A stretch of 64,000 nt of DNA from contig VXRC01000004.1 in NCBI GenBank assembly GCA_009838645.1, positions 1 to 64,000 on the forward strand. Direction: 5' to 3'. Made by a program: the position numbers and the translations under genes. How positions within the stretch are numbered: position 1 is the first letter of the stretch; every line of letters starts with the position of its first letter. Positions 15,292 through 60,978 of the stretch are shown piece by piece. The notes beneath the pieces are model-generated. The model did no database searches. It was given only the letters and a program-made list of their open reading frames with translations, and was not told where the DNA came from. This DNA comes from Gemmatimonadota bacterium. Its GTDB lineage: Bacteria; JAAXHH01.

Positions 15292-15393
15292 GGTTGGTCT
15301 TTTTCGGATCGAAGGTCCACCCGGACCGACCCGGTGTCGGACGTGCCGGAAAACGCTTCTGATGTCGGCACCCGCGCCGGATCGGCGGCGGAA

Positions 15394-16545: not shown

Positions 16546-16563
16546 GGCAGGCCCTTCCCGAGA

Positions 16564-17742: not shown

Positions 17743-17778
17743 GTGCTTGCTCCTTGGTTTGATGCTTCGCCCGCTCCG

Positions 17779-38878: not shown

Positions 38879-38994
38879 CTTGACATCGGGCCCTCCAGCC
38901 GGGATATTCAATCAGGTTCTGGACAGGCCTTCCGAATCCCGTGCGACCGGGAACGGCTTGTCATCCAACCCATTCGATCCCACCCGATAGTCCT

Positions 38995-41589: not shown

Positions 41590-41627
41590 CTTCCCGCTTA
41601 CATCCGCGCGCTGAAGGACGGCGCAAT

Positions 41628-44035: not shown

Positions 44036-44068
44036 CTACAACCCCGGCTTATCCGCGTCCTCCGCGGT
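44036..44068 (-). pseudogene. Relic of a sulfatase gene 3' end
   Basis: On the minus strand this reads TAEDADKPGL then TAG, matching the last residues AAEDAEKPGL of the intact sulfatase at 59446-60978. The 33 bases differ from 59446-59478 at only three positions. Nothing sulfatase-like continues upstream; the match ends where the inverted-repeat-bracketed ATPase cassette begins. Confidence 0.6.
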
Positions 44069-44134: not shown

Positions 44135-45307
44135 ATGGTTCCCCGACCCGCCATCTTGACGTCTATCACGACAGCCCTCTCGCGTAGTCCCATCGCCCTG
44201 CTTCTGGGACCTCGGCAGTGCGGAAAAACGACCTTGGCCCGGCAACTGGTGCCATATGACGACCTGAACTACTTCGACCTCGAAGACCCGGCCAGTCTGG
44301 CGAGGCTGGATGAGCCTATGACGGCGCTCGGTCCGCTCGAGGGCCTCGTGGTCATCGACGAGATACAGCGTCGGCAGGAGTTGTTCCCAATTCTGCGCGT
44401 ACTGGTCGACCGTACGCCATCGCCAGCGCGGTTCCTGATCCTGGGCAGCGCTTCTTCGGACTTGATGCGTCACGCGTCGGAATCGCTGGCCGGGCGCGTG
44501 GAACGCATCATGATGCGGGGATTCAGCTTATCCGAGGTAGAAATCGTCCACCAGCGGAAGCACTGGCTGCGCGGGGGATTTCCGAGGTCGTACCTCGCCG
44601 CGACCGAGGTGGATAGCGCCGTTTGGCGCAGGGAATTCATGCAAACGGTGGTCGAAAGGGACGTGCCGCAACTCGGCCTGCGTCTGCCGGCCGCCACGCT
44701 GTTCAGGTTCTGGACCATGCTGGCCCATTATCACGGCCAGATATGGAACGCGGCCGAATCGGCCAGGTCACTTGGTGTCGCCGAAACCACGACCCGCCGC
44801 TATCTCGACGTGCTTGAAGGACTGCTCATGGTCAGGCGGCTGAATCCATGGTTCGCCAACCTGAAGAAGAGGCAGGTCAGGTCGCCGAGGATATTCGTCC
44901 GGGACAGCGGTCTGCTTCATGCGCTTTTGGGCATTCGGTCGGAAAGGGACCTGCTGTCCCATCCAAAGTCGGGGGCATCGTGGGAAGGGTACGTCGTCGA
45001 GGAGGTTCTGTCTGCCTTTGAGCCCGAAGAGGCCTGTTTCTGGGCGACCCATAACGGCGCCGAACTGGACCTTTACCTGGTCAGGGACGGCCGAAGGATC
45101 GGCGTGGAGTGCAAACGTCAGGACGCGCCGCGCGTGACGCGTTCCATGCGTGTTGCGCTGGAGGATCTGGCCCTGGATCATCTGTACGTCGTCTATCCCG
45201 GTTGTAAGACCTATGCAATCGGCAAGGACATTACCGTAACGTCCCTTTCACACATTAAAACCCCCGGGCTCTCCGCACCTGCAACCGAGGATTCTTCGGG
45301 TTCATAA
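44135..45307 (+). CDS. AAA-family ATPase with DUF4143 C-terminus
   Basis: This 390-residue P-loop ATPase is of the type common in mobile or defence-associated loci, often carried as single genes. The Walker A is LLLGPRQCGKTTLARQLV near residue 22, Walker B LVVIDEIQRRQELFPIL, and sensor FLILGSASSDLMRHASESLAGR. A winged-helix-like segment follows (AESARSLGVAETTTRRYLDVL), and a C-terminal DUF4143 nuclease-like fold has the GAELDLYLVRDGRRIGVECKRQ motif (GxELDxxL...ExK). Function is unproven; the C-terminal motif resembles PD-(D/E)XK nucleases. It is bracketed by 15-base inverted repeats, has its own promoter, and sits beside a sulfatase relic. Confidence 0.9.
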   Translation: MVPRPAILTSITTALSRSPIALLLGPRQCGKTTLARQLVPYDDLNYFDLEDPASLARLDEPMTALGPLEGLVVIDEIQRRQELFPILRVLVDRTPSPARFLILGSASSDLMRHASESLAGRVERIMMRGFSLSEVEIVHQRKHWLRGGFPRSYLAATEVDSAVWRREFMQTVVERDVPQLGLRLPAATLFRFWTMLAHYHGQIWNAAESARSLGVAETTTRRYLDVLEGLLMVRRLNPWFANLKKRQVRSPRIFVRDSGLLHALLGIRSERDLLSHPKSGASWEGYVVEEVLSAFEPEEACFWATHNGAELDLYLVRDGRRIGVECKRQDAPRVTRSMRVALEDLALDHLYVVYPGCKTYAIGKDITVTSLSHIKTPGLSAPATEDSSGS

Positions 45308-45359: not shown

Positions 45360-48300
45360 TCACGCTTGCTTCCCACGGTCTCCAGGCGCGATCAGGCGGT
45401 AGAGCGCCGGTGTGACGAACAGCACCAGCAGCGTGGACAGCGTGAGCCCGCTCAGACCGGTGTAGGAAAGACTGATCCAGAGGTCTCGCGTCGAGGGATG
45501 CCCGGCGAAGAGCAGGGGGGTCAGTCCCACCAGCGTGGTGAGGGAAGTAATCAGGATGGGACGGACGCGCTGCCGGGCTGCTGTAATGACTGCCTCGTCG
45601 AGGAGCATGCCCTCCCGTTGCAGCCGGGCCATGCGGTCCACCAGCAGGATCGCGTTGTTGACCACGATCCCGACCATGAAAATGGTCCCCAGGAAAGCCC
45701 CCCGGTCGAATGAGAGTTCGAAGATCCAGAATACCAGGAAGATGCCGGTGAGTCCCATGGGTACGGTCAGCAGGGCGACCGCGGCGCGGCGGAAGGACTC
45801 GAACAAAGCGGAAGTCACCAGAAGGACCAGCACGAAAGCCAGGCAGACGGCCAGGTACAGGTCACGCTCCTCTCCCCAGTCGAATCCTCCCCACGATCTA
45901 CTTTCGATCCGGTAGCCCGGAGGCAACTCGACGGCGTTCAGAAAGGCCTCTTGAAACCTTCCTGCCAGTCGCCCGGCGCCCACGAACTCGTAAGATATCC
46001 ACCTCTCATACTGCTGGTCACTGCGCATGATGGCCGTGGGGACCCGGTTGAACGCCAGGTATCCGGCGTCTCCCATGTCAAGGGTGACGTCGGTGTTCCG
46101 TATCGGAAGGCGGCCTAAGTCGGACGCCGAGGCGGACCGGTCGACGACCACGCGGAACGGAATCCGGCGTCCGTCGAGATGCAGTTCGCCGTCGTGGCCT
46201 TCCCGGTCTGCGTAAAGCCGTAGCAATTCGTCCAAATCGCCCAGATTGACGCCGGCCCTCGCGAGCGTACGTTGCGCGGGGTTGAATTGCAGTTCGTAAT
46301 AGGGACCTCCACCGAAACTCCACATAGTACTGTTGGTGGTTTCGACCTTTCGCACGCGCCGGTTCCGTTCCAGTTGCCGCGCAACGCGCTCTGCGTGGTC
46401 TCGCAAGTCGTCGTAGTTGTAACCGACCATCTTCAGGTTGAATGGGATAGCCCCTCCCCTTCCGGTAGAGAAACCGGTTCCCATACCAGAAACGCCTATG
46501 GACAATCCACCGAAGTGAGTCACCAGGTTCATCATCCGGCCCAGCATTTCAAGAGGCAGTGCCGTCAAGGCGGACTCCTCCGAAAACCTGGTCAGCATGC
46601 TGGCGTTGGTTCCGTCGATCCGGGTCACCACTTCCACGTTCTTCCCACCGGCTTCCACCGCATAGCGTTCGAAGGCCAGCGCCACCGAATCGATCGTGGA
46701 CGTCTCCATGCCCGGGTGTCCGCCGATTTGGACGCTGATACGTGTTTCATCGGCAAACCAACCGAAACTCGGACCTTTCCACACGTCGGTCGTGAACAGA
46801 AAGACGCTGATCCCGAAGATACCGAAAGTCGAGAGCGCCACGGACCACCGCCAGCGGACCATGCGCGATACGGCGCGTCCATACCAGCCCACGAAACGCA
46901 TCACATACGCCGGTCGGTGCTCCGAGGATACCTTCCTGTCCAGCCGGTGCGTAACGACCGGAACCCAGATACCCGCGACCACGATGGACGCGGCGAGGGT
47001 CAGGCCGAGGCCGAGCGCAAAAGGAGCGAAGTCCCGTCTGAACTCGTCCGAAAGGTAGACGATCGGAACCAGGGCGGCGATCGTGGTCATCGTAGTCGCT
47101 GCAACGGGGATCAGCATCTCCGATGTACCGCGAACGGTCGCCGCGTCCGGTTTATCGCCTTCCTCGCGGCACCGGCGGATGTTCTCGTAGATCACCACCG
47201 CGTTGTCCACAAGTATGCCGAAGGCCAGTGCAAGGCCGGAGATGGTGAGCAGATCGAGCCCCAGCCCCATGGCCTCGAAGCAGATCATGGCGGCGAGCAT
47301 GGAGAGTCCGATGGAACTGAAGAGGACGATCGAAGCCCGAATCTGACGGATAAAGACCAGGAGGAGGGCGATGATAGCGACCAGGGCAATGGCGACGCGC
47401 ACGAAAAGGTCGTCCAGCGCCTGCCGGACGTCTTCGCTCCGGTCGGTGACCAGGTTCGCCAGGACGCCCGCCGGCAGACCCCGCGCCAGCTCATCCATGC
47501 GCGTTCGTACGCGATCCGCGACATCCAGCATGTTGGTGCCCGGCTGCTGGTCGATTTCAATGGAAATGGCGGACTGGCCGTTCAAACGTGAAATGCTGCG
47601 CGGTTTCGTCAGTCCCATGCGCGAATCCACGAGGTCGCCGAGGCGGATAAGCTCGTCGCGGCCCGTCGCGACGGGCAGCTCGGGAAGATCTTCCATCACC
47701 GTCGACATGGGTTTCGTGTACAGCGGGATCAAAGTGGACTTACCGTGTACAGCCCCGGCGGCATGAGACTTGAAGGTGTCGTTGATCGCGATTTGCACCT
47801 GCGACGGGGTAAGGCCGGAACTGTGCAGTCGGTCGGCATCGAGCCGAAGGACCAGTTCTTCTTCCCGCCCCCCGATGACTTCGACGTTCCGAACGCCGTC
47901 GAGGGAGGATAGGACCGGCAGGATTTCCTCGATGGCCAGCGCGCGCAACGCGAAGTCGGTCATTGGTCCGGACAGACGATAGCTCATGAACCCTTCGAGA
48001 TCACGGAACATCTGAGGGGTTCTTTCCGATATGCGGGGCTCGACGCCGTCCGGCAACTCCTCTCGCAGGGATGCGAGCCGGTCCCTGAGCAGGGCCCGGG
48101 CCGATGCGATCGACAGGGTATGATCGAAAGTCGCGTAAATACCTGCCATACCTTCCTTAGTTTCCGATCGTATTTCGATGATGCCCGGCACGGAGGAGAT
48201 TTCCGATTCGATCAAAGCCGTCACGTGCTTGACGACGGCTTCCGAAGAAGCCCCCGGCCAGGCGACCGCAATGTTCAACCCCGGATAATCCTTATCGGGC

Positions 48301-48413
48301 TCGAGCGACAGCGGCAGGCGCAGGACGGCTGTCGTCCCGAGGGCCAGTACGACGAGGGCCACGGCGGTCACGGCGATGGGTCGATGGATCGCGGATGTGA
48401 GGAATCTTTCCAT
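45360..48413 (-). CDS. RND efflux transporter, inner-membrane pump 2
   Basis: This 1017-residue AcrB/MdtC-type RND pump exports substrates from the inner membrane and periplasm using the proton gradient. It shows the N-terminal helix and porter domain (RFLTSAIHRPIAVTAVALVV, LRLPLSLEPDKDYPGLNI), a second set of helices with the proton-relay segment GILVDNAVVIYENI in TM4, and C-terminal helices with GIVVNNAILLVDRMARLQREG. The ATG at 48413 begins the conserved protein; the long upstream extension overlaps pump 1 and is rejected. It starts 20 bases after pump 1 stops and is the last gene of the adaptor-propeller-pump unit. Confidence 0.93.
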   Translation of the reverse strand: MERFLTSAIHRPIAVTAVALVVLALGTTAVLRLPLSLEPDKDYPGLNIAVAWPGASSEAVVKHVTALIESEISSVPGIIEIRSETKEGMAGIYATFDHTLSIASARALLRDRLASLREELPDGVEPRISERTPQMFRDLEGFMSYRLSGPMTDFALRALAIEEILPVLSSLDGVRNVEVIGGREEELVLRLDADRLHSSGLTPSQVQIAINDTFKSHAAGAVHGKSTLIPLYTKPMSTVMEDLPELPVATGRDELIRLGDLVDSRMGLTKPRSISRLNGQSAISIEIDQQPGTNMLDVADRVRTRMDELARGLPAGVLANLVTDRSEDVRQALDDLFVRVAIALVAIIALLLVFIRQIRASIVLFSSIGLSMLAAMICFEAMGLGLDLLTISGLALAFGILVDNAVVIYENIRRCREEGDKPDAATVRGTSEMLIPVAATTMTTIAALVPIVYLSDEFRRDFAPFALGLGLTLAASIVVAGIWVPVVTHRLDRKVSSEHRPAYVMRFVGWYGRAVSRMVRWRWSVALSTFGIFGISVFLFTTDVWKGPSFGWFADETRISVQIGGHPGMETSTIDSVALAFERYAVEAGGKNVEVVTRIDGTNASMLTRFSEESALTALPLEMLGRMMNLVTHFGGLSIGVSGMGTGFSTGRGGAIPFNLKMVGYNYDDLRDHAERVARQLERNRRVRKVETTNSTMWSFGGGPYYELQFNPAQRTLARAGVNLGDLDELLRLYADREGHDGELHLDGRRIPFRVVVDRSASASDLGRLPIRNTDVTLDMGDAGYLAFNRVPTAIMRSDQQYERWISYEFVGAGRLAGRFQEAFLNAVELPPGYRIESRSWGGFDWGEERDLYLAVCLAFVLVLLVTSALFESFRRAAVALLTVPMGLTGIFLVFWIFELSFDRGAFLGTIFMVGIVVNNAILLVDRMARLQREGMLLDEAVITAARQRVRPILITSLTTLVGLTPLLFAGHPSTRDLWISLSYTGLSGLTLSTLLVLFVTPALYRLIAPGDRGKQA

Positions 48414-48433
48414 GATTCGATTGCGCGTAGCGA

Positions 48434-51400
48434 TTACCGGGACTCGGCAGTCCCGGAGGTCGACGGCCTGGCGAACAGGCTGTACAGGATCGGAACGACG
48501 AATAGCGTCAGCCCCGAACCGAGGATGAGGCCGCCGATCAGCGTGCGGGCCAGGGGCATGCCGAGTTCTCCCCCGGTCCCGAAGCCCAGGGCCAGCGGAA
48601 GCACGCCGCATATGGTGGTGACGGTGGTCATCAGGATCGGCCTGAGCCGCCGCCTGCCCGCCTCGTGGATCGCATCCCTTCGGGACAGGCCGTCTCGTTC
48701 GGCCCGGACGATGAAATCGACCTTGAGGATGGCGTCGTTCACGACGATGCCCACGAGGACGATGGCGCCGATCCACGTGATGATGTTCAGGCTTTCTCCA
48801 AGCAGCGTCAGCACGTAGACCGACCCGGCCAGCGCGAGGGGAATCACCGCGATGATGATCCAGGGAAGGCGCAGCGACTCGAACTGGGCGGCGAGTATGA
48901 GCAGGACGACCACGATGGAGAAGAGCAGCGAGACCAGCAGGGAACGGTAGGCGGTCCTGAGTGTCTGGTGCGTGCCGGTGAATTCCACGTAGTGCCCGTT
49001 GAACCGGTTGTCGGCCAGCCCTTCCTGCGCCATCAGGTCTCTGACCCGGTCCGCCACACCGACGAGGTCGTCACTGGCAATATCCACATCGACGATGACC
49101 ATGGGCGCCTGGTCCATGCGCAGGATTTCTCCCGCGACTTCGACGGGTTCGATCGTGGCCAGCACACGAAGGGGGATCGGTCCATTCAGTGTATCCACGG
49201 CTAAATCCAGCAAGTCGCGGATGTCCGTGTCGTCCTGGCTTCTGCCGTGCAGGACGATCGGTATGCGTTCATCGGTGCGGTCCAGGTGTGTGGCCGTCCG
49301 GCCGCCCAGGTAGGTGCGCAGGGTTTCGGCGATTCCTTCGGGCTTCACGTCCAGGCGCGCGGCCAGGCGTGCGTCTATGTCGATCCGGTAGGAAGGCCGG
49401 AGATCGACGCCCCGCAGCGTGATGTCGGCGAGCGGGAGCATGGATTCGAACAGAAGCGACCGGATGAATTCCGCGGTTTCCGACATGCGCCGCTGGTCCG
49501 AGTCGACAGGGTCGGCGGTTCGTTTATCCATGTGCAGACGTATCGACAGGTCGGGCTGGCGCCCGCCGAGGATCGAGGACAGTGCCGAGACCGGCGGCTT
49601 CAGGTCAACCTGGCTTTGCATGCCGGGAGGGATGCTGTAGCGTAAGGCGGCCATGACGGCGGGTGTGTCCGGCTGCTCTTCATCCAGGAAAACCTGCACG
49701 CGGGCCGTTTCGAGTCTGGTGGCGCCAGGCGCCGTTCCGGGCACGAAGGCCGCTCCGGCCGCTCCGGCCGTCGTCAACGTATGGCGCACGCCGGGGATGG
49801 TAAGCGCCAGGGCGGAAAGGGTCCGCGCGCGCTCCACCGTGGTTTCCAGCGACGTCCCGGACACGAGCGAAAGGTCCATCCAGAACACGCCTTGATCCAC
49901 CTCCGGGTAGAAGGATCGCGGCAGGTTGCGTCCGATGAATCCGGCGATAAGGGCAAAGCCCAGCAGCAGGATCAGTCCCCGGACCGGATGATTGATGGCG
50001 GCATCCACGGCGCGGCGATAGGTACCGTATAGGCTGGCGGGCTGCCGTGCTCTGCGTGCTGTCGCCCGCCGGCTCCACCGGGCGACGAGCGCGGGCAACA
50101 GCGTCAACGCGGCCGTCCAGGAGAGGATGAGCGACGCGGTGACCGCAAGGGCCTGGTCTCTGAAAAGCTGCCCGGCGACCCCGGGCGTCAGGGCCATGGG
50201 CAGAAACACGGCGACGGTGGTCAGTGTGGAGGCGGCCATGGGCAGTGCCACTTCGGCCGCGCCGTTGCCCGCGGCCGACTGGACGTCGGGATCGGTCTCC
50301 CGGTGCCGCACGATGTTCTCGACCGAGATGATGGCGTTGTCCACCAGCATGCCGATGCCGAGGGCCAGACCGCCGATCGACATGATATTCAGCCCTACGC
50401 CCGTCGCGTCGAACACGGCGAAGGCGGCGATGACGGCCACCGGCATGGTCAGCGCCACGGGTATGGCGTACCGGAAACTGCGGAACCAGGCCAGCAGGAC
50501 GATCAGCGCGAGGACGCCGCCCCCGGCCAGCGCGGTCAGCGCATTGCGTATGGAACCGCGTACGAAGGTGGCCTGGTCGAAGGCGACCGTCAGCGATACA
50601 TCGGGGAACTCGACGTTGTACTGTCGTACCAGGGCATTGACGGCTTCACTGGCCGCAAGCAGGTTGGCGTCGGCCGTCTTCTGCACCAGGACGCCGATGG
50701 CGGGCGTTCCGTCGAAGAGCACGGCGCCGCGCCGGTCCTGTTCGCCCATGCGCACCGTCGCCACGTCCCGGACCCGTATCAGCGCGCCGTCCGGCCGGGT
50801 CGCCAGAACCGTGGCGCGCATGTCGTCAAGGGATCGGAATGCGCCGTCGATACGCAGCGTGTAACGATAGTTGCCCCGGCGCATCAGACCGGCGGGCAGG
50901 TCGCGATTGGAAGCGTTCAGCACGTCCTGGACCAAGTCGAGAGACAGCCCGAACGCGGCCAGGCGCGCAGGGTCGATATTGATCTGTACTTCGGGCCTGG
51001 CACCGCCGACGATGCTCGCGCGGGCCACTTCAGGCAGCTGTTCGAGTCTCGGCCGGAGGACCTGTTCGGCCAGTCTTTGCAGGGAAGAAGTGGCACCGTC
51101 GTCATTCCGCGTTCCGGACTCGAGCACCAGTCCCATCATGGGCGCCCGGTCAGGGTCGGTATCCAGCAGGACCGGACGATCGCTTTCGGCCGGAAGGAGG
51201 AACCGTTGCGTGTCGAGGCGTTCCCGGGCGGTGAGCAGCGTGGACTGAAGGTCGGCGCCCCAGTCGAGCTCGACGGTTACGAGCGATTCGCCCTCGCGGG
51301 AAATGGAACGGACCTGCATCGCACCGGGCAGATTCCGCAACGCGGACTCGATCGGTTCGGTAATCTCGCGGGCCACGATCTCCGGCGGCGTATCGGTCCA

Positions 51401-51550
51401 CGTCGTCCATACCGTGACGGTCGGTATCTCGAGGGGCGGCAGCAGGTTGACGGGCAGGCGGGTAAGCGCGATGATCCCGATGAGAACGGCGGCGCACGTA
51501 AGGCAGCACGTGGCTACCGGCCGACGAACGGCGATCTGGGGAAGATTCAT
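48434..51550 (-). CDS. RND efflux transporter, inner-membrane pump 1
   Basis: This 1038-residue RND pump, a paralog of the one downstream, would act as one half of a hetero-oligomeric or alternative pump, as in MdtBC. It has the opening NLPQIAVRRPVATCCLTCAA and VNLLPPLEIPTVTVWTTW, the proton-relay helix GIGMLVDNAIISVENIVRHR, and the C-terminal VGIVVNDAILKVDFIVRAE with FGTGGELGMPLARTLIGG. It starts 18 bases after the last propeller gene ends. No TolC-type outer-membrane channel is encoded in the window, so it must rely on one elsewhere. Confidence 0.93.
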   Translation of the reverse strand: MNLPQIAVRRPVATCCLTCAAVLIGIIALTRLPVNLLPPLEIPTVTVWTTWTDTPPEIVAREITEPIESALRNLPGAMQVRSISREGESLVTVELDWGADLQSTLLTARERLDTQRFLLPAESDRPVLLDTDPDRAPMMGLVLESGTRNDDGATSSLQRLAEQVLRPRLEQLPEVARASIVGGARPEVQINIDPARLAAFGLSLDLVQDVLNASNRDLPAGLMRRGNYRYTLRIDGAFRSLDDMRATVLATRPDGALIRVRDVATVRMGEQDRRGAVLFDGTPAIGVLVQKTADANLLAASEAVNALVRQYNVEFPDVSLTVAFDQATFVRGSIRNALTALAGGGVLALIVLLAWFRSFRYAIPVALTMPVAVIAAFAVFDATGVGLNIMSIGGLALGIGMLVDNAIISVENIVRHRETDPDVQSAAGNGAAEVALPMAASTLTTVAVFLPMALTPGVAGQLFRDQALAVTASLILSWTAALTLLPALVARWSRRATARRARQPASLYGTYRRAVDAAINHPVRGLILLLGFALIAGFIGRNLPRSFYPEVDQGVFWMDLSLVSGTSLETTVERARTLSALALTIPGVRHTLTTAGAAGAAFVPGTAPGATRLETARVQVFLDEEQPDTPAVMAALRYSIPPGMQSQVDLKPPVSALSSILGGRQPDLSIRLHMDKRTADPVDSDQRRMSETAEFIRSLLFESMLPLADITLRGVDLRPSYRIDIDARLAARLDVKPEGIAETLRTYLGGRTATHLDRTDERIPIVLHGRSQDDTDIRDLLDLAVDTLNGPIPLRVLATIEPVEVAGEILRMDQAPMVIVDVDIASDDLVGVADRVRDLMAQEGLADNRFNGHYVEFTGTHQTLRTAYRSLLVSLLFSIVVVLLILAAQFESLRLPWIIIAVIPLALAGSVYVLTLLGESLNIITWIGAIVLVGIVVNDAILKVDFIVRAERDGLSRRDAIHEAGRRRLRPILMTTVTTICGVLPLALGFGTGGELGMPLARTLIGGLILGSGLTLFVVPILYSLFARPSTSGTAESR

Positions 51551-51568
51551 GATCGGTCCCGTTCCGGC

Positions 51569-52552
51569 TCAGTTTCTCAACTGGTAGACCACGATACTGG
51601 GATTGAGTTCCCCTTCTTCCACGGGGGACGTGTCGATGGCGTACAGATCATCGCCGTCGGCGTGGTCAAAATGAAGGGTTGACTCGATATCCATCTGGAT
51701 GAGCGTTCCGTCTCTTCCGAACAGGTCGATATGCCGGACGCGGGTATTGTCCGGACCGTTTCTGTCCCGCTGTACGAGCACGAAATCACCGACGACCAGA
51801 GGTCGAAACATACGGGTCGATCTATTCAACTCTTCCGACGCAGTCTCCCTACTCGTAATCACCATGGGATAGTATCCTGGCGGTTCGGCTGCATACGTCG
51901 CGACGATACTGCCATCCCATTCCATATCGTACACCTGGTAGGTCTTGACGGATGAGTATAGAATGCGGCCTTCCGGGGTGAGCGACATGTGCAGGAACGA
52001 GCCTCCCATCCGGACCGGAATGGGCGGATCCGGCGGCCAGGGCCGGCTGCCCATATCGTGACTCTTGTTGCCTTTCGAGTCGTACACTGTAAGCAGCGAT
52101 TCGCCCATGAGGGAACTCACGGCGCAGCGTTCTTCACTTCCGCAAATGATGTTATCCGGTCCGGGCCTGTCGATTCGGAACGAAGCCTGGTGGACTCCGT
52201 CCAGGTTGAATGTTGACACACGGAAGTTTTCCTTGTCGAATACCACGATGCGGTCGTCGAATACCGTAACATTCTGAGGTTTCGACATCTCCCCCGGTCC
52301 GGATCCCTCCTGGCCGATACGACGGATCATCTTCCCGCTCGGATCCGTTACCCAGACCGTATGCTGCTGCCAGTCTGGCAGGTAGAAGTTCCCTACTCCG
52401 TCCCGGGCGAGATCGGAGATTTGACCAACGAATTCATTCCCCAGATCGATAGGGATCTCTCGCACTTTTTCGATAGTGTAGTTCTGGGCCGCAGCCGGGG
52501 TGGTCCATTGTTGAAGAAGCATTGCTGCCAGGAGTAGTAATACGTATCTCAT
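51569..52552 (-). CDS. Secreted 6-bladed beta-propeller, paralog 1 of 5 (nearest the pumps)
   Basis: This 327-residue protein has a signal peptide (RYVLLLLAAMLLQQWTTPAAA) and a 6-bladed beta-propeller of the NHL/DUF5128-like type found in FCB-group bacteria. The array's shared signatures appear: FYLPDWQQHTVWVTDPSGK, RRIGQEGSGPGEMSKP, YSSVKTYQVYDMEWDGS and the C-terminal AIDTSPVEEGELNPSIVVYQL. GGAGGAG stands seven bases before the ATG at 52552. It is 44 bases from paralog 2 and 18 bases from pump 1, so it is in the pump operon. Function is unknown; propellers of this kind may bind ligands in the periplasm. Confidence 0.88.
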   Translation of the reverse strand: MRYVLLLLAAMLLQQWTTPAAAQNYTIEKVREIPIDLGNEFVGQISDLARDGVGNFYLPDWQQHTVWVTDPSGKMIRRIGQEGSGPGEMSKPQNVTVFDDRIVVFDKENFRVSTFNLDGVHQASFRIDRPGPDNIICGSEERCAVSSLMGESLLTVYDSKGNKSHDMGSRPWPPDPPIPVRMGGSFLHMSLTPEGRILYSSVKTYQVYDMEWDGSIVATYAAEPPGYYPMVITSRETASEELNRSTRMFRPLVVGDFVLVQRDRNGPDNTRVRHIDLFGRDGTLIQMDIESTLHFDHADGDDLYAIDTSPVEEGELNPSIVVYQLRN

Positions 52553-52596
52553 AAAGAAGCTCCTCCAGATGACTCGATCGCATGGATCAATCACAG

Positions 52597-53592
52597 CTAT
52601 TCTGACCCGCCGCTCAATCGGTAGACCACGATATGCGGATTGGGTTCACCTTCTTCAACAGGTGCTGTATCGATGCCGTACAGGGTTCGTTCTTCGGCAT
52701 AGACGAAAGTGAAGGGTATTTCGATTCCGAGTTGTAACACGTTGCCGTCCTGAACAAACAGATCGCCGCGTATTCTTGATTCACCCCCCTCTACGGGAAG
52801 GCTTCTTTGAACTAATACGTGGTCCCCAAATTGCAATGGCCGTCCTATCCAAGACCAGTAGATGCTCATACTGAATCCACCTAGATCAGGGGTAACAGAA
52901 AATGGAACGTAACCGGGAGGTTCCGCCGAATAGGTTGCCAGCACCGTGCCATCCCAATGCAGTCTCGACACTACGTAACGTTTCACCGGCGAATACAGCA
53001 CGTCTCCATTCGGTGTGCCGGATACATGTTGGAACAACTGATAGGATCCGCCGATGACCCCGACGGGCCTGGCCTCCGCCTCACGGCTGCCGCCATCGTA
53101 AAGCTTCGCGCCATCGGTGTCGTAAACCGTGAAAAATGACGGAGCCAGCACAGAAGAAACAGCGATGTGGCCATCGTCGTTTATCAACATACCTGTCGAT
53201 AGGTACACATCGATTCGATGGCTGGAGAGATGCTGTCCAGAAATGGAAAAAGCGGAGATTCTGTCGTTGTCGTTGTCGAGCACGAAAACCTTACCGTCGT
53301 GCAACGCCACACTGCGGGGATTGGTCAGTTCGCCCGGTCCCCTTCCCGCCTGCCCGATTTTCCGAATCAACCTGCCCTGAGGGGCCACCACCCAGACCGT
53401 ATGCTGTTGCCAGTCGGGCAGGTAGAAATTACCCTCTGCGTCCCGGGTCAGATCAGCGATTTCTCCGACGATTTCATCACCCAGATCAAGCGGAATCTCC
53501 GATTCCTTTACGATTGTGAATCCTTGTGCGGAAACATCAATACAAAAAGCCGTGACCAGGCTGAAAAGCAATGTAAGTACTATACTTTTCAT
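52597..53592 (-). CDS. Secreted 6-bladed beta-propeller, paralog 2 of 5
   Basis: This 331-residue protein has a signal peptide (SIVLTLLFSLVTAFCIDVSA) and the same array signatures: FYLPDWQQHTVWVVAPQGR, RKIGQAGRGPGELTNP, YSPVKRYVVSRLHWDGTVLA and GIDTAPVEEGEPNPHIVVYRL (partly quoted). The ATG at 53592 has TGAGG six bases upstream; the ATG at 53598 is too close to that site. This gene diverges from paralogs 4 and 5 mainly in the middle blades. It lies between paralogs 1 and 3 with gaps of 44 and 45 bases. Confidence 0.87.
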   Translation of the reverse strand: MKSIVLTLLFSLVTAFCIDVSAQGFTIVKESEIPLDLGDEIVGEIADLTRDAEGNFYLPDWQQHTVWVVAPQGRLIRKIGQAGRGPGELTNPRSVALHDGKVFVLDNDNDRISAFSISGQHLSSHRIDVYLSTGMLINDDGHIAVSSVLAPSFFTVYDTDGAKLYDGGSREAEARPVGVIGGSYQLFQHVSGTPNGDVLYSPVKRYVVSRLHWDGTVLATYSAEPPGYVPFSVTPDLGGFSMSIYWSWIGRPLQFGDHVLVQRSLPVEGGESRIRGDLFVQDGNVLQLGIEIPFTFVYAEERTLYGIDTAPVEEGEPNPHIVVYRLSGGSE

Positions 53593-53637
53593 TGGCATGC
53601 CTCATTGGTGTTTCGATGCTGGTTATTCTTGTAAATA

Positions 53638-54618
53638 TCACTCACCCCCGACTAAACGGTAGACCACGATATTCGGGTTGTCCTCCCCTTCTTCTACGGG
53701 CGCGGTATCGATCCCATAACACTTGTCGCCATCGGAGTAGAAAAACACCATTGGCAGTTCGATCCCGGTCTGCACGATGGTTCCGTCATCGGTGAAGATA
53801 TCTCCGAAAAGTCCGTATACACCGCTTGTGTCTTTCCCCTGTCTTTGGACGAGAACATGACCGCTGACATACAGGGGCCGGAACAGCGGAGTAAAGGTAA
53901 CCAGCTTTTGAGGAGGTGCGTCAGGAAACGGACTATATCCGTAAGGGTCCGCACTGTATGTATCGAGTATCGAACCGTCCCAATCGAGGCGAAACACCTC
54001 GTATCTCTTGACCGTAGAATTGAGGATGAGGCCGTCAGCAGCTTGCGACACATGGTGAAAGTTCATTCGAATGGGCATGATCAGCAGGCCACCGACGCCG
54101 GTATCGGGCGTGCCGATTTCACGTACAATCGTACCGGCCATGTCAAAAACCGTAAAATGTGGTTTGTCCGTTGCGTAACTCACAGCGATCATCCCACCGC
54201 CGCCGACCAACAGTCCGCTGGGTGGCAGTACAGGGGCGATGCGAAAGTCCGACAGGTACGTTCCGTCCTGTGTGAAGATCTTCACGCGGTTGTCGCCCGT
54301 ATCGAGGACGACAACCTTATCCTCGAAAACGGCCACACTTCTTGGTTCCACCAACTCTCCAGGTCCGGTTCCTCCTCGACCCAAACGTTGGGAGATAACA
54401 CCCGACGACTCAGCTACCCAGATCGTATGTTGCCCGTAGTCTGAAAGAAAAAACCGGCCATCGGCATCCATGACCATGTCCGAAACACCGCCGACAATGT
54501 CATCATCCAGAAGCAGTGGGATTTCACGCACCTTTTCAACGGTGTAGGTCTGTCCAATGGATGGACCTGCCGAAGCAAGTAAAAGGTATGCGATGGCGAA
54601 GGCTGCGATGTGTCTCAC
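53638..54618 (-). CDS. Secreted 6-bladed beta-propeller, paralog 3 of 5
   Basis: This 326-residue protein begins with GTG at 54618, seven bases after AGGAAGG. A signal peptide (AAFAIAYLLLASAGPSIG) and the propeller signatures FFLSDYGQHTIWVAESSG, QRLGRGGTGPGELVEP, NSTVKRYEVFRLDWDGSILD and GIDTAPVEEGEDNPNIVVYRL (partly quoted) are present. The conserved W in DWQQHTVW is replaced (DYGQHTIW), so this copy is the most diverged. The gap to paralog 4 is the largest in the array (121 bases) and holds no convincing promoter. Confidence 0.86.
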   Translation of the reverse strand: MRHIAAFAIAYLLLASAGPSIGQTYTVEKVREIPLLLDDDIVGGVSDMVMDADGRFFLSDYGQHTIWVAESSGVISQRLGRGGTGPGELVEPRSVAVFEDKVVVLDTGDNRVKIFTQDGTYLSDFRIAPVLPPSGLLVGGGGMIAVSYATDKPHFTVFDMAGTIVREIGTPDTGVGGLLIMPIRMNFHHVSQAADGLILNSTVKRYEVFRLDWDGSILDTYSADPYGYSPFPDAPPQKLVTFTPLFRPLYVSGHVLVQRQGKDTSGVYGLFGDIFTDDGTIVQTGIELPMVFFYSDGDKCYGIDTAPVEEGEDNPNIVVYRLVGGE

Positions 54619-54739
54619 TGCATTACCTTCCTATTCGTGCTGACTGATTGGGTACGGTTTCCCGCTTAAGTTTATGGTTGGAGAACTGGCGGCCAGGAGT
54701 CTCCGAGTGGAATGCAACAGCAAGCCAATTCGAGGTGGG

Positions 54740-55732
54740 TCATCGGCCGTTTACTTCCGTCAGCCGGTACACCACGATATACGGATTGTCCGCTCCTTCA
54801 TCCAAGGGCGTCGTGTCGATGCCATAAAGGAGATCGTCATCCACCGCGTAAAACTGATAAGGCAGTTCCATGGCCAACTGTACCGGTGCGCCATCCATGG
54901 TGAACAGATCGCCGAAGTACTCTATGCCACTTTCCAAATCCACCTTTTTGCGTTGTACCAGAACGTGATCACCAATGGCCAACGGACGCAGAATCGGTGT
55001 CCAGGTCTTCAAGATGTCGCTGATCTTTGGGAACTGAACGCCGGACGGAAATACGAGTTTTCCGTATCCAGGGGAATCGGCCTCATATTCCGCGAGTACG
55101 GTACCATCCCACTTCATTCTGAGTACGGGGTATTCCTTAACCGTGGAGTACAGAATGTGACCGGCCGATGTCTGGTTGAAATGCTGATCCCCCATCATTG
55201 TAAAAACCGACTGATCCGGTACTCTTTCACCTCTACTTCCTACAACACTTCCATCCATATCATAAACCGTGAAAAGTGTTGGCTCCCAGAGAGAATTTAC
55301 CGCTATGCGGCCGTCTTTACTCGCCAGAATCCCAGTTGCCATAAAGTAGTCAATTCGGAAGTCGTCTACATACGTGCCATCCATCGTGAAAACCACTACC
55401 CGACTGTTACCTTTGTCGAGCACGATGACTTTGTCTTCGTATACAGTTGTTCCACTCGGCAAGTTCAGTTCACCCGGACCGGCTCCTTCCCGGCCCAAAC
55501 GCCGGATCAATCTGCCTTTGGTATCACACATCCAGACCGTATTCTGCTGAAAGTCGGTCAAGTAGAACCGACCGGCGGTGTCCTGAATTAGATCTCCGAT
55601 TTGTCCGGCAATCTCATCACCCAGATCCAGGGGAATGTCGCTGGTTTTCTCGAAGGAGAAGGTCTGGGCGGAAACGTCCGAAACGGGTATCAGAGCCAAC
55701 CCGGTCACAAGGACAGCAGCAACCAACTTCAT
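54740..55732 (-). CDS. Secreted 6-bladed beta-propeller, paralog 4 of 5
   Basis: This 330-residue protein has a signal peptide (KLVAAVLVTGLALIPVSDVSA) and the array signatures FYLTDFQQNTVWMCDTKGR, RRLGREGAGPGELNLP, YSTVKEYPVLRMKWDGTVLA and GIDTTPLDEGADNPYIVVYRL (partly quoted). GGGAG stands eight bases before the ATG. In its central blades it is nearly identical to paralog 5 (NSLWEPTLFTVYDMDG, YSTVKEYPVLRMKWDG), pointing to a recent duplication or gene conversion between the two. Confidence 0.87.
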   Translation of the reverse strand: MKLVAAVLVTGLALIPVSDVSAQTFSFEKTSDIPLDLGDEIAGQIGDLIQDTAGRFYLTDFQQNTVWMCDTKGRLIRRLGREGAGPGELNLPSGTTVYEDKVIVLDKGNSRVVVFTMDGTYVDDFRIDYFMATGILASKDGRIAVNSLWEPTLFTVYDMDGSVVGSRGERVPDQSVFTMMGDQHFNQTSAGHILYSTVKEYPVLRMKWDGTVLAEYEADSPGYGKLVFPSGVQFPKISDILKTWTPILRPLAIGDHVLVQRKKVDLESGIEYFGDLFTMDGAPVQLAMELPYQFYAVDDDLLYGIDTTPLDEGADNPYIVVYRLTEVNGR

Positions 55733-55823
55733 ACATTGATCTCCCTATTTGGTTCGGAGCGATTGACTACAACGGTTTCCCTATCGGGCGGTATCGGAAA
55801 CTTAACAGCACGAATTCACCCAA

Positions 55824-56810
55824 CTACAGTTCACCCAGCCGGTACACCACGATATGCGGATTGTCCTCCCCCTCATCCATGGGCGTGGAGTCGATGCCAA
55901 AGAGGAGATCGCCATCCACCGCGTAGAACTGAAGGGCCAGTTCCAAGGCCAACTGTATCGGTTCGCCGTCCATGGTGAACAGATCGCCGTAGTATTTCGG
56001 TGGACCTTTCTCCCAATCTTCCTTCTTCCGCTGCGCGAGTACGCAATCAGAGACAATGAGGGCACGTAGTATGGGCGTCCAGGTTTTCATGATCTCCCTG
56101 TGGTTTAGAAACAAGGCACCGGACGGATAGGTAAGCTTTCCGTAACCAGGGGAATCGGCCTCGTAGGTCGCGAGAACGGTACCGTCCCACTTCATTCTTA
56201 ACACAGGGTATTCCTTGACCGTGGAGTACAGGATATGACCTTCCGGTGTCTGACTTAAATGCTGATCACCAATGGCATAACCAACAGCCTGGTCCGGCAC
56301 TCTTTCACCTCGGCTGCCAATGATCCCGCCATCCATATCGTAAACCGTGAAAAGCGTTGGCTCCCAGAGAGAATTAACCGCGATCCGGCCATCCTTGCTA
56401 ACCAGGATCCCCGAAGTCATTTGGAAGTCCAACCTGAAGTCGTTTGAATAGGTCCCATCCTTCTTGAATATCATTACCCGGCCATTGCCGGTATCCAGCA
56501 CGATAACCTTGTCTTCAAATACAGCGGTTCCGGTGGGATGCTGCAACTCGCCGGGACCGGCTCCCTCCCGCCCGACACGTCGGACCAGCTTGCCCTTTGA
56601 GTCACATATCCAGACGGTATGCTGCTGCCAGTCCGTCAGGTAGAACCGTCCGTCCGTGTCCAGAAACAGATCTGAGATTAGTCCGACAAACTCATCTCCA
56701 AGCTGAAGCGGGATTGCTCTTACTTTCTCGATCGCGAATGGCTGGGCATCTGCTGTACCTAAAGCAGCCGTGAAAACAAATGTTGATACGACGGAGATTA
56801 GCCTTTTCAG
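55824..56810 (-). CDS. Secreted 6-bladed beta-propeller, paralog 5 of 5, probable CTG start
   Basis: This protein of about 328 residues has no ATG, GTG or TTG in frame upstream of base 56546, yet the frame is open and homologous to its paralogs well beyond that point. Reading up to CTG at 56810 yields a signal peptide aligned with the others (KRLISVVSTFVFTAALGTADA), then PFAIEKVRAIPLQLGDEFVG, LTDWQQHTVWICDSKGKLVR and GREGAGPGELQHPTGTAVF. AAGGTG lies eight bases before the CTG. Starting at the TTG at 56546 would remove the signal peptide and first blade. It is either a rare CTG initiator or a copy with a damaged start. It is 64 bases after the adaptor gene. Confidence 0.8.
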   Translation of the reverse strand: MKRLISVVSTFVFTAALGTADAQPFAIEKVRAIPLQLGDEFVGLISDLFLDTDGRFYLTDWQQHTVWICDSKGKLVRRVGREGAGPGELQHPTGTAVFEDKVIVLDTGNGRVMIFKKDGTYSNDFRLDFQMTSGILVSKDGRIAVNSLWEPTLFTVYDMDGGIIGSRGERVPDQAVGYAIGDQHLSQTPEGHILYSTVKEYPVLRMKWDGTVLATYEADSPGYGKLTYPSGALFLNHREIMKTWTPILRALIVSDCVLAQRKKEDWEKGPPKYYGDLFTMDGEPIQLALELALQFYAVDGDLLFGIDSTPMDEGEDNPHIVVYRLGEL

Positions 56811-56874
56811 ATTGAAATCACCTTTCTTCAGGAATACACTTTCTGCAGAAATACACGTGCATTAGCCAGGCGCC

Positions 56875-58110
56875 TCATTCCCTCAGCCGTACCCGGACCG
56901 GTACGTCGTGGGCCAGCGTGATGTTGCCGGTGACGGCCACCGTGTCGCCCTCGCTGACCCCGGAGGTCACCTCTCTCCAGGCGTCGCCTTCCTGCCCCAG
57001 GGTGACGTAGGACCATTGGGCCCTTCCGCCTTGAACGACAAACACAAGCGTGCGTTCGTCGCGGCTGACGATGGCTTCGTCCGGTACGGCGATCCGGTTT
57101 TCGTATGAAGTGCCCTCGATGAGCACCTCGGCGAACATGCCGGGTTTGAGCCGCCCGCCCGGGTTGGCCAGTTCCGCTTCGACGATGGCCGTTCCGCTCT
57201 CTTCGTCGACGGTGGGGTGTATGCGGGAGATCCTGCCTTCGAAGAACTCGCCGGGCCACGTGGTGACGCTGATGCGTATTCCGTGTCCGACACCGACGGC
57301 GCCCAGGTCACTTTCGAGCACGGCAGCTCTGACGCGTACCCTGGAGATGTCGATCAGTTCGAAACAGGTCTCTCCCGAGCCGACCTGCTGTCCTTCCTCT
57401 ACCAGTCTTTCTGCGATGATGCCCGAAAACGGAGCATGGACGGAGGTCTGCTCGAGTTCCCACCACACGCGGGCATGTTCTACTTCGGCCAGGATGAGTC
57501 CCGTGTTCTGCGCAATGAGATCCAGCCGTCGTGATCCACTGAGCAATTCCGCGGCATCCAGGTTCCTTTGCGCCGACTTCAGTTCCCCGGCATCGATTTC
57601 GCCAAGCTCGAAGGCCTGACGAGCCTTTGCCAGTGCATCGCGTTCACGTATCACCCAGGTTGTGTCCGAATTCAGGACGGCGGTAGTGTCCATGACGTAC
57701 ACGGCATAGTCGATCCGCTTGTCCAGCAGATCCGCTTCCGCTTTCTCGACACTCAGTTTGAACGGCGCTTCGTCCAGGCGCAGCAGCAGGTCGCCTTCCT
57801 TGACGCGATCGCCCTCGCGCACCAGGACTTTCAATGCCATGCCCGAGACGCCGGTGCTCAACTCGGTACGCCGGTGGGCTATGAGGCGGCCTGATGCGAC
57901 GATCGAACGGGTCAGTGTGCGGGGGCTTACCACCACGGCTTCGACCGGGAAGGGCTGCACGGTGTTTTCGGATGCATTTTCTTCGGCAGCCCCTTCGGCA
58001 ACCCCCTCGGCGGCTTCCTCCCCGGGATCTGCCGTGCACGCACTCAGGAAGGCTGTGAAGGTAACGACGACCGCAACTAAGATAGCGAAGGTTGTTACTC
58101 GTATTTTCAC
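56875..58110 (-). CDS. RND efflux periplasmic adaptor (HlyD/MFP family) lipoprotein
   Basis: This 411-residue membrane-fusion protein links the RND pump to an outer-membrane channel. It starts at GTG 58110 with a lipoprotein signal (TFAILVAVVVTFTAFLSAC, lipobox at Cys25) and a Glu/Ala-rich linker. Lipoyl-like halves are split by an alpha-helical hairpin: TELSTGVSGMALKVLVREGD then AEADLLDKRIDYAVYVMD and KARQAFELGEIDAGELKSAQ, and TSVHAPFSGIIAERLVEEG; the barrel (ESGTAIVEAELANPGGRLKPG) and C-terminal domain follow. It heads the operon; the promoter candidate at 58208 is weak. Confidence 0.92.
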   Translation of the reverse strand: MKIRVTTFAILVAVVVTFTAFLSACTADPGEEAAEGVAEGAAEENASENTVQPFPVEAVVVSPRTLTRSIVASGRLIAHRRTELSTGVSGMALKVLVREGDRVKEGDLLLRLDEAPFKLSVEKAEADLLDKRIDYAVYVMDTTAVLNSDTTWVIRERDALAKARQAFELGEIDAGELKSAQRNLDAAELLSGSRRLDLIAQNTGLILAEVEHARVWWELEQTSVHAPFSGIIAERLVEEGQQVGSGETCFELIDISRVRVRAAVLESDLGAVGVGHGIRISVTTWPGEFFEGRISRIHPTVDEESGTAIVEAELANPGGRLKPGMFAEVLIEGTSYENRIAVPDEAIVSRDERTLVFVVQGGRAQWSYVTLGQEGDAWREVTSGVSEGDTVAVTGNITLAHDVPVRVRLRE

Positions 58111-58254: not shown

Positions 58255-59283
58255 CTATAAATCGTCGAGAGACCGTCTCAGGGTGTAGACGGCCACCGAT
58301 GGATTCGCCTGGTCATCCGACGGTTCCAGCAGCATGTAGAGCCGATCGCCGCGGGAGAACAGCGCACCGGGCGCCATTTTGTAATCCGGCAATTGGATAT
58401 CTTCCGCGATCGGGTTGAGGTCTGAATCGTAGAGGGCAAGGTACGCGCCTGAATAACCGGGTGCTGCGAACACCACGGCCAGGCCCCTGTCGCCGATCCG
58501 CAGGATCTGAAGGATATGGCTCCATTGGTCATGGTACTCGTCAAGACGGGGAATGTCGTTCAGGATACGTACGTCGAATTGCTCCGGCGGTGGGACATAG
58601 TGCGCCGACCGGCCTTGAATCGAGTCGACTAGGACGCCATCCAGCGAATACTTCGAAAGGGTGTACTCGTAAGGCGATATGGTGTAGAGGAATCCCCCCG
58701 ATATCACCACGCCCCCGCCCGCTGATCTGGCCGCTTCATTGTGGTTTTCTGACTGAGGCGCAAACCTTCGCAAAAGCTGGCCCTGATCGTCCAGTTCGCA
58801 CACCAGTTCAGAGGGATGGGTGGACCAGTAACCGTACAGCCGGCCCTCTTCGGAGTAATCGATTTCATCCAGGAGCTCCGATACCGGAATGGAACTGACG
58901 AAGCGGTATGATCCGTCATAGCAGGATATACGGGACATCATGCTGTCGTACAGGTACAGATTCCCGTTGTGGGAGGCTATCGAGACCGGATTGCGGTACT
59001 CTCCCGGGCCATCGCCCGGTCCGCCGATCATGCCCTTGCCCGCCCCGGATCTGTCGTAGATCCCCGCACGGGGCGTGATATCCAGTATGATGATGTCTCC
59101 ACCTGCGGTTACCGTGGCGATTCGGGGGAGTGGTCCAATGAGAAACTCGTCGCGCGAATCCAGCACTATTTGTGACTCTTCCTGGAAAACGTCCTCGAAA
59201 ACGAGCGTTCTGGCCTCCGCGCAACCCGTCAACCACACCGGAAACACGGTCGAGACGGCGAACATCATCAATACAGAATACAT
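58255..59283 (-). CDS. Lipoprotein 6-bladed beta-propeller (sixth, divergent copy)
   Basis: This 342-residue protein is a lipoprotein (hydrophobic LMMFAVSTVFPVWLTGC, lipobox Cys) with a beta-propeller that keeps only part of the array signatures: GGPGDGPGEYRNPVSIA in place of GPGEL, YLYDSMMSRISCYDG, and the C-terminal LEPSDDQANPSVAVYTL, equivalent to the EEGExNPxIVVYRL end. It lies upstream of the adaptor in the same direction but is clearly older than the five tandem copies. The start at 59283 fits the lipoprotein signal; an ATG at 59310 is possible. Confidence 0.8.
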   Translation of the reverse strand: MYSVLMMFAVSTVFPVWLTGCAEARTLVFEDVFQEESQIVLDSRDEFLIGPLPRIATVTAGGDIIILDITPRAGIYDRSGAGKGMIGGPGDGPGEYRNPVSIASHNGNLYLYDSMMSRISCYDGSYRFVSSIPVSELLDEIDYSEEGRLYGYWSTHPSELVCELDDQGQLLRRFAPQSENHNEAARSAGGGVVISGGFLYTISPYEYTLSKYSLDGVLVDSIQGRSAHYVPPPEQFDVRILNDIPRLDEYHDQWSHILQILRIGDRGLAVVFAAPGYSGAYLALYDSDLNPIAEDIQLPDYKMAPGALFSRGDRLYMLLEPSDDQANPSVAVYTLRRSLDDL

Positions 59284-59445
59284 AGGGGTCACCCGGAATG
59301 ATCCGTTCATATGATGCCAAGCCTAAGGTATCAGACAACAAAATACAAAGAATCACCGCCATCAATAGGGTATCACCCTACTTAAAGCGCATGATCTCGC
59401 GTTACGAATTGATGAGAACGGGTGTGTGTTAGCCAGGATGCCGGA

Positions 59446-60978
59446 CTACAACCCCGGCTTCTCCGCGTCTTCCGCGGCCGGCCCCTGCAAGTTGACGTTG
59501 TCCCCGGTGGGCCACCGCACGTTGTAGTGCGCGGAGCGGTCCCGCTTGTATCCCGCGTGCCAGTAGTTGCTGGCCGCCAGCCATTCCAGCAGGTCTTCCT
59601 TCATCTTCGCCTTGATCCCGGTATACGCATCGTCGTCCCACCGGTTCCATAGCTCTGCGGGATCGGTCTCCAGGTCGTACAGCTCGCCCTCCTCCTGGCC
59701 GATGTAGTAAACCATCTTGTGGGCCGGGCTCCGCATCATGATCTGGTAGTTGTCCTCGCAGAAGACGTAGTCACGCGGCGTGACGGAGGAGTCCGGGTCG
59801 GCATAGGGCAGTAAGGACCGCCCTTCCAGGTAGGTGGGGACCGGCACGCCGGCCGCCTCGAGGATGGTGGGACCCAGGTCCATGAGGGAGACCAGGTCGC
59901 TAACGTGGTCGCCCCTTCGCCGGCGGTCCGGGTAGCGGATGATGAGGGGGATGTGGGTGATGGTGTCGTACATCAGCCACTTGTAGGCCAGGGCGTGGTC
60001 GCCCAGGTTCTCGCCGTGGTCCGAGCAGAAGATGACCAGGGTGTTGTCCAGGTAGCCCCTTTCCTCCAGGGCGTCCAGGATCTCTCCCATCTTCTCGTCC
60101 ACCGTGGTCACCTTGGCGTAGTAGTGCCGGCGCATGCGGTCGATGCGTTCGTCGTTGGCCAGGTACATGTTGATGCCGGATTCGTGGCCGGCCGTGGAGA
60201 ACATCTTCTTCAGCGCTTCCTGCTGGGGCGGCTTTTCCGCCAGTTCGTTCTCCCGGGTTACCGGCATGGGTATCTCGACATCTTCGTACAGGCCCAGGTG
60301 ACGGGGGAGGGGATCCCAGGGTTCATGGGGACCCGTAAATCCGATTTCGAGGAAGAAGGGCTTTTCGCCGCGGTGGCTGCGGATCCAGTTGAGCGCCGAG
60401 TTTCCGATGAAGACGTCGCTGTGGAAGCGCTCCTCCTCGTGCCACTGCACGCCCTGCAGTCTGGTCCACCAGTCGGGGTCCGTCAGGTGGCGGTCGTTGG
60501 GCCGCTCCACGCCGTGAAAGGTCATGTAGCGGCCCCAGTCGTCGTCCGCGCCGCCGCCGGCCAGGCTCATCCCGGTCGGGTTCTCGACGACGACCCGCTC
60601 GTGGAACCCGCCGGGGATGTCCCGGGGCATGAAGTGCATCTTGCCGATGCTGGCGCACCAGTAGCCGCTTTCCGCCAGGTCCTGCACCCAGTTGCGGTGG
60701 CGTCCCCAGGGCTGGAAACTGTAGACGCCCGTGTTATGGGGGTACATGCCGGTGAAGACGGCGGCCCGCGAGGCCACGCAGGTGGCGCCCGGACAGTAGG
60801 CCTGCCGGAAGGAAACCCCCTCGGCGGCCAGCCGGTCGTGGGCCGGGGTGATCATGTGGGGCTGGTCCCAGCCGCGGATCGTATCGATACGCTGCTGGTC
60901 CGTCATGATGAGGATGATGTTGGGGCGGTCCGGGCCAGGCGGACCAGGTGGGCTAGGCGGTCCAGGTGGGCTAGGCAA
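59446..60978 (-). CDS. Sulfatase family protein
   Basis: This 510-residue alkaline-phosphatase-superfamily sulfatase has PNIILIMTDQQRIDTIRGW (metal Asp), the formylglycine motif CVASR (TCVASRAAVFTGMYPHNTG, of the CX(P/A)SR type), SIGKMHFMP, and VIFCSDHGENLGDHALAYKW with further metal ligands. It hydrolyses sulfate esters of sugars or other metabolites once the Cys is matured by a formylglycine-generating enzyme encoded elsewhere. There is no signal peptide; the N-terminus is a Pro-Gly repeat (PSPPGPPSPPGPPGP). It begins with TTG inside the end of the CorC gene, with GGAGG six bases upstream, so it is co-transcribed with phoH-ybeY-corC. Its 3' end matches a relic at 44036. Confidence 0.9.
   Translation of the reverse strand: MPSPPGPPSPPGPPGPDRPNIILIMTDQQRIDTIRGWDQPHMITPAHDRLAAEGVSFRQAYCPGATCVASRAAVFTGMYPHNTGVYSFQPWGRHRNWVQDLAESGYWCASIGKMHFMPRDIPGGFHERVVVENPTGMSLAGGGADDDWGRYMTFHGVERPNDRHLTDPDWWTRLQGVQWHEEERFHSDVFIGNSALNWIRSHRGEKPFFLEIGFTGPHEPWDPLPRHLGLYEDVEIPMPVTRENELAEKPPQQEALKKMFSTAGHESGINMYLANDERIDRMRRHYYAKVTTVDEKMGEILDALEERGYLDNTLVIFCSDHGENLGDHALAYKWLMYDTITHIPLIIRYPDRRRRGDHVSDLVSLMDLGPTILEAAGVPVPTYLEGRSLLPYADPDSSVTPRDYVFCEDNYQIMMRSPAHKMVYYIGQEEGELYDLETDPAELWNRWDDDAYTGIKAKMKEDLLEWLAASNYWHAGYKRDRSAHYNVRWPTGDNVNLQGPAAEDAEKPGL
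60941..60976. repeat. 18-base tandem repeat coding the sulfatase Pro-Gly N-terminus
   Basis: ggaccaggtgggctaggc (60941-60958) and ggtccaggtgggctaggc (60959-60976) differ at one base, with a partial third copy before them. On the minus strand they encode PSPPGP units and overlap the CorC gene's stop. Confidence 0.85.

Follow-up and report, generated by a model that had tools for sequence, protein, structure and literature searches.

The usual description of an RND exporter is that of a machine with three parts. Among them, MdtABC and MuxABC are tripartite exporters with two pumps per adaptor, and in CusCFBA the adaptor receives cargo from the protein CusF. Propellers of the DUF5128 type are widely found as secreted proteins, and we know of no function for them. 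The locus described here resembles MdtABC and MuxABC in pairing a single MFP adaptor with two neighbouring, distinct RND pump genes, and in the expectation of an external channel of the TolC type; it differs from them in that the operon contains propeller genes and lacks a TolC gene. With CusCFBA we propose a functional analogy, namely a periplasmic cargo-binding protein encoded inside an RND operon, as the propellers would be; however, CusF is a small metal-binding barrel in single copy, whereas the propellers are large and occur in several copies. The Bacteroides exported protein BF0058 (PDB 4raa) shares with the propeller array both the fold and the Pfam family, but known structures of this kind have no link to RND operons, whereas our locus holds a tandem mosaic array inside one. 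In the open-licence literature, we found no paper tying these propellers to RND operons.

Results

The window, i.e., the whole 64,000-nucleotide stretch of DNA that was analysed, corresponds to the initial 64 kb of contig C4 in a draft genome of 3.8 Mb. The comparison sample covered the genus with 12 genomes and the phylum with 16, and the wider set held 384 genomes. The unit is transcribed from the minus strand in the order lipoprop0, adaptor, prop1 to prop5, RND1, RND2, and the features of the region are as follows:

58255..59310, minus strand: lipoprop0, lipoprotein six-bladed propeller, lipobox LTGC (DUF5128, 4.8e-13)
56875..58110, minus strand: HlyD/MFP-type periplasmic adaptor, lipoprotein, lipobox LSAC (Pfam HlyD_D23, 4.5e-30)
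55824..56810, minus strand: prop1, exported six-bladed propeller (DUF5128, 2.8e-12; NHL, 5.5e-7)
54740..55732, minus strand: prop2, exported six-bladed propeller (DUF5128, 3.4e-10; AlphaFold2 model)
53638..54618, minus strand: prop3, exported six-bladed propeller (NHL, 3.1e-7; DUF5128, 7e-5)
52597..53598, minus strand: prop4, exported six-bladed propeller, likely start 53592 (DUF5128, 5e-9)
51569..52552, minus strand: prop5, exported six-bladed propeller (DUF5128, 4.4e-7; start from orthologue comparison)
48434..51550, minus strand: RND1, first RND pump of the pair (ACR_tran, 1e-198)
45360..48437, minus strand: RND2, second RND pump of the pair (ACR_tran, 1.3e-149)
44135..45307, plus strand: DUF4143/AAA_14 ATPase gene at the insertion hotspot (DUF4143, 1e-41)
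44036..44067, plus strand: left boundary of the insertion, marked by a 32-bp direct repeat (from repeat copy counts at empty and filled sites)
59446..59477, plus strand: right boundary of the insertion, marked by a 32-bp direct repeat where a sulfatase gene ends (3' end)

The genes lie where the original prediction had placed them, all on the minus strand, and both Pfam and NCBIfam confirm their assignments. The predicted gaps of 18 to 121 bases hold from the adaptor to RND1 (64, 91, 121, 45, 44, and 18 bases) and not between the pumps, whose reading frames overlap by 4 bases; the RND2 start, previously set at 48776, is corrected to near 48437. No terminator-like site was found on the minus strand in the adaptor-to-RND1 gaps. 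The prop5 reading frame is open to 52594, with 52552 as its most likely start. The prop1 gene has no ATG, GTG, or TTG start, and carries a CTG at 56810 where the G007 and G009 orthologues have TTG, which suggests that its start is weak or damaged: the CTG may be a start codon of a rare kind, or else a sign of incipient decay.

The five exported propellers all match DUF5128 and/or NHL, consistent with the paralogous six-bladed propellers that had been predicted. Five of the six propellers score above the DUF5128 (PF17170) cut-off of 22.9 bits, and prop3 falls just under it with 22.6 bits, reaching 23.4 when its neighbours are kept in frame. The array members are 43–68% identical to prop2 and form a single clade in the tree, separate from lipoprop0. 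The latter, with its DUF5128 match and 22% identity to prop2, agrees with the description of a sixth, divergent lipoprotein propeller just upstream. As read from the sequence, array members carry plain signal peptides and are accordingly expected to be soluble periplasmic proteins, while the adaptor and lipoprop0 carry lipoboxes.

The modelled fold rests on prop2, the lipoprop0 model being too poor for use. The AlphaFold2 model of prop2 (pLDDT 86.6, pTM 0.85) has six four-stranded blades by strand order, and its best PDB matches are six-bladed NHL domains, with a Foldseek E-value of 5.1e-12 against BF0058. Among the inter-blade loops of prop2, residues 127–131 and 217–250 are variable, 168–184 moderately variable, and 35–44, 80–91, and 307–317 conserved; going by the usual propeller topology, these loops would lie on one face.

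The adaptor matches the TIGR01730 RND_mfp model (5.6e-59; 199.7 bits against a cut-off of 94.9). The ACR_tran domain spans the full length of both pumps, which have an LVDNA motif with the TM4 acidic proton-relay residue (residue 402/406), and in which Asn replaces AcrB Lys940. With the MdtB and MdtC models, both pumps score far below the respective cut-offs of 1774 and 1584, RND1 reaching 384 and 364 bits. A genome-wide search for the TolC family gave 12 domain matches in six genes, none in the operon and none on the contig, in agreement with the predicted lack of a TolC gene in the window. In the pump tree, RND1 and RND2 fall in two separate clades, each including one pump of the distant genome G359 (RND1 is sister of the first of them), which indicates that the pump pair is old. 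Outside the genus, no pump orthologue with at least 60% identity was found in the 384 sampled genomes, the homologues reaching 27–37% only.

Within the genus, the adaptor (at least 57% identity) and both pumps (at least 60%) are present in G000, G002, G004, G007, G009, and G010. All of these except G002 also have the array, and in each assembly that resolves its position it sits between the adaptor and RND1 (contig breaks fall inside the array in G004 and G007). The array as an oddity of a single genome is ruled out by four relatives. This layout is kept in five genomes while the pumps have diverged to 72–78% identity, which is more than expected by chance. The link was to be considered coincidental if arrays were seen elsewhere and RND genes without them: none of the 12 genus members has the array without the pumps, and the arrayless pumps of G002 keep two upstream propellers, so that the link is not refuted. 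Indeed, in G002 the adaptor and RND1 are one base apart and followed by RND2, with two lipoprop0-type lipoprotein propellers upstream.

Among the 16 genomes of the phylum, a lipoprop0 orthologue is present in 6/6 with intact RND1 and RND2 and in 0/10 without them, always upstream of the adaptor. Thus, lipoprop0, rather than the array, is the constant propeller of the unit, and the peripheral role first given to it does not fit the propeller most tightly linked to the pumps. In this count, G005 is taken as lacking the unit; it has, at a contig edge (C78, 3-281), an RND2 fragment (59%) with an internal deletion, located at the hotspot, which may be what is left of a decayed island.

The island occupies one chromosomal site in 5/12 genomes of the genus. 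The flanks of this site, which are conserved in the genus, consist of the sulfatase and CNNM genes at one end and of TPR genes at the opposite end. The site is empty in four genomes (G001, G006, G008, and G011), where the sulfatase-TPR gap is about 15 bases. The DUF4143 gene is found alone at the hotspot in G003 and at the matching locus of G002, whose RND unit sits elsewhere. The 32-bp repeat is present in single copy at empty sites and in two copies around inserts. The unit is therefore accessory, having been gained, lost, or moved; as the five array-bearing genomes form one clade, the insertion may have been a single event. The hotspot abuts the 3' end of the sulfatase gene. On its other side, paralogous TPR/GWxTD-type secreted proteins (window positions 38941-44030) flank it, and these are expanded in tandem in G013 (C36).

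Whole-gene dN/dS values from pairs between genomes range from 0.03 to 0.37, by which positive selection on whole propeller genes is rejected; all the unit members compared are under purifying selection. Synonymous distance is uneven along the unit: between G000 and G009 it is 0.17–0.50 in the array and 0.17–0.27 in the pumps. Furthermore, the fifth array members of G007 and G009 are 69–100% identical at both ends and 37–68% in the middle, and the third members are near-identical except for residues 236-275 (61%). This pattern bears the mark of segment exchange rather than of simple descent. The proposed diversification "like a receptor repertoire" is thus matched by the mosaic copies and by the variability of some inter-blade loops, and not by positive selection on whole genes.

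Same-strand propeller-RND operons were found in seven other families (G205; G366 and G096; G217; G230; G222; G359; G072), giving support to the predicted functional link between propellers and pumps. The loci were collected around the best distant pump homologues, except that of G072, which was reached from the propeller side; most of the propellers have Pfam support, and two further loci (G089 and G237) were left uncounted, their propeller being distant or on the other strand. Gene order varies among them: propeller upstream of the adaptor, in G366 and G096 with TolC in between (propeller-TolC-adaptor-RND-RND), propeller directly before the pump in G205 and G230, and propeller after the pumps in G222. 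In G072 the propeller lies between a truncated adaptor and the pump, with a thioredoxin-like gene beside it.

Propellers were found at 8/28 RND-anchored loci versus 1/20 random 20-kb windows of G359 (p = 0.04), and in operon with the pumps in 6/16 two-pump and 0/9 single-pump operons (p = 0.045); both tests are small, made after the fact, and ignore relatedness. The remaining ten of the 16 distant two-pump operons sampled have no propeller nearby. On the pump tree, the propeller label needs 6–8 changes, which indicates that the propeller-RND link was gained or lost repeatedly. On the tree of 79 propellers, the RND-linked label needs 6 changes versus 20.9 by shuffling, and thus is clustered; lipoprop0 groups with the G072 propeller (SH-aLRT 97%), in a tree whose deep branches are weak and long. 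Tandem arrays of four to five propellers also occur in G079, with no RND gene nearby.

In the complete genome G359 (C1:480000-499900) there are three tandem groups, each made of small secreted Cys peptides with a lipoprotein propeller after them, and MauE leads two of the groups; an O-antigen ligase, an adaptor, and two RND pumps follow. By its look, this is a small-peptide export system. It shares with the window tandem lipoprotein propellers upstream of an adaptor and two RND pumps, the first of them in the RND1 clade; it differs in having peptide, MauE, and ligase genes, whereas the window operon lacks these and has its array between adaptor and pumps. In G002 (14188-17960 region), we found a small secreted two-Cys peptide, a propeller, a thioredoxin-like protein, a propeller, and MauE, then a 149-aa protein before adaptor-RND1-RND2. 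The G359 and G002 peptides match no known family. Neither MauE nor a thioredoxin-like gene was matched in the window island, and hidden peptide genes in the window gaps were rejected, as no plausible ORF was found there. A published gene table (PMC10434189) places the Bacteroides thetaiotaomicron propeller BT0664 a few loci away from genes for an RND-type adaptor, an O-antigen ligase, and a signal peptidase.

Discussion

The recurrence of these pairings in several unrelated bacteria suggests that such exporters use the propellers as a functional component. From the observed linkage, conservation, selection, and mosaicism we infer a cargo and a mechanism, and the reading that we favour, tentatively and at a little under an even chance, is that of an accessory tripartite exporter with two distinct RND pumps, one adaptor, and periplasmic propellers dedicated to binding or presenting its cargo. 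The two pumps would share the single adaptor; lipoprop0 would be the constant propeller, and the array, with its five soluble members, a variable specificity set. Through their variable surface, the propellers would bind periplasmic cargo, perhaps small exported peptides, and would present it to the adaptor and to the pump porter domains, the conserved sector possibly being the contact that they have in common. With a TolC protein from another locus the channel would be complete, and export would be driven by proton-motive force. For the cargo of propeller-RND systems, exported peptides are our leading guess. Compared with the original interpretation, the propeller-pump link stands, given its recurrence in other families, and the view of lipoprop0 as peripheral does not; the ligand-binding or cargo-gating role that it gave to the propellers is still hypothetical.

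The propellers could instead be partners of small secreted Cys peptides (receptors, folding helpers, or immunity proteins), with the RND pair exporting the peptides and the window array being a derived form whose peptide genes are elsewhere or lost. The peptide-propeller groups upstream of the adaptor and pumps in G359, the corresponding genes upstream of adaptor-RND1-RND2 in G002 (two-Cys peptide, propellers, thioredoxin-like protein, and MauE), and the thioredoxin-like gene beside the G072 propeller all point in this direction. We nevertheless consider it unlikely: genes for peptides, MauE, or thioredoxin-like proteins are all missing from the window island, none of the three kinds is visible in the propeller-TolC-adaptor-RND-RND operons of G366 and G096, and the peptides that were found lack a known-family match. 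Somewhat less likely still is a general envelope role for the propellers, as scaffold, stress, or surface proteins that share the exporter promoter and take no part in transport. DUF5128/NHL propellers are indeed widespread, with matches in 45/96 sampled genomes, most of the sampled propeller loci have no RND gene nearby, and the best matches among solved structures are NHL domains and uncharacterised exported proteins from Bacteroides. A mere sharing of the promoter, however, fits poorly with propellers placed inside the adaptor-pump gene run, with the strict co-occurrence of lipoprop0 and the pumps, and with the recurrence in other families and the clustering of RND-linked propellers in the tree.

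It is also conceivable that the insertion hotspot united propellers and pumps by chance. The site, with its 32-bp repeats and its DUF4143 gene, is of the kind where genes may hitchhike, and G002 has the same pumps without the array. Nonetheless, every member compared is under purifying selection, the array was retained at the same spot while the pumps diverged to 72–78%, and lipoprop0 matches the pumps exactly, even at the different site of G002; with recurrence in other families also disfavouring it, we judge a chance association very improbable.

Returning to dedicated cargo-presenting propellers, a broader form of this reading, which we put forward as speculative and rather unlikely, is that secreted six-bladed propellers could be a general fourth component of a class of two-pump RND exporters for small peptides, each matched to a cargo, with the array of this genus as a recombining specificity repertoire for a shared pump pair. 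The recurrence of the operon link offers a concrete way into the role of DUF5128-type propellers, and it points toward RND systems whose periplasmic recognition parts are dedicated and exchangeable.
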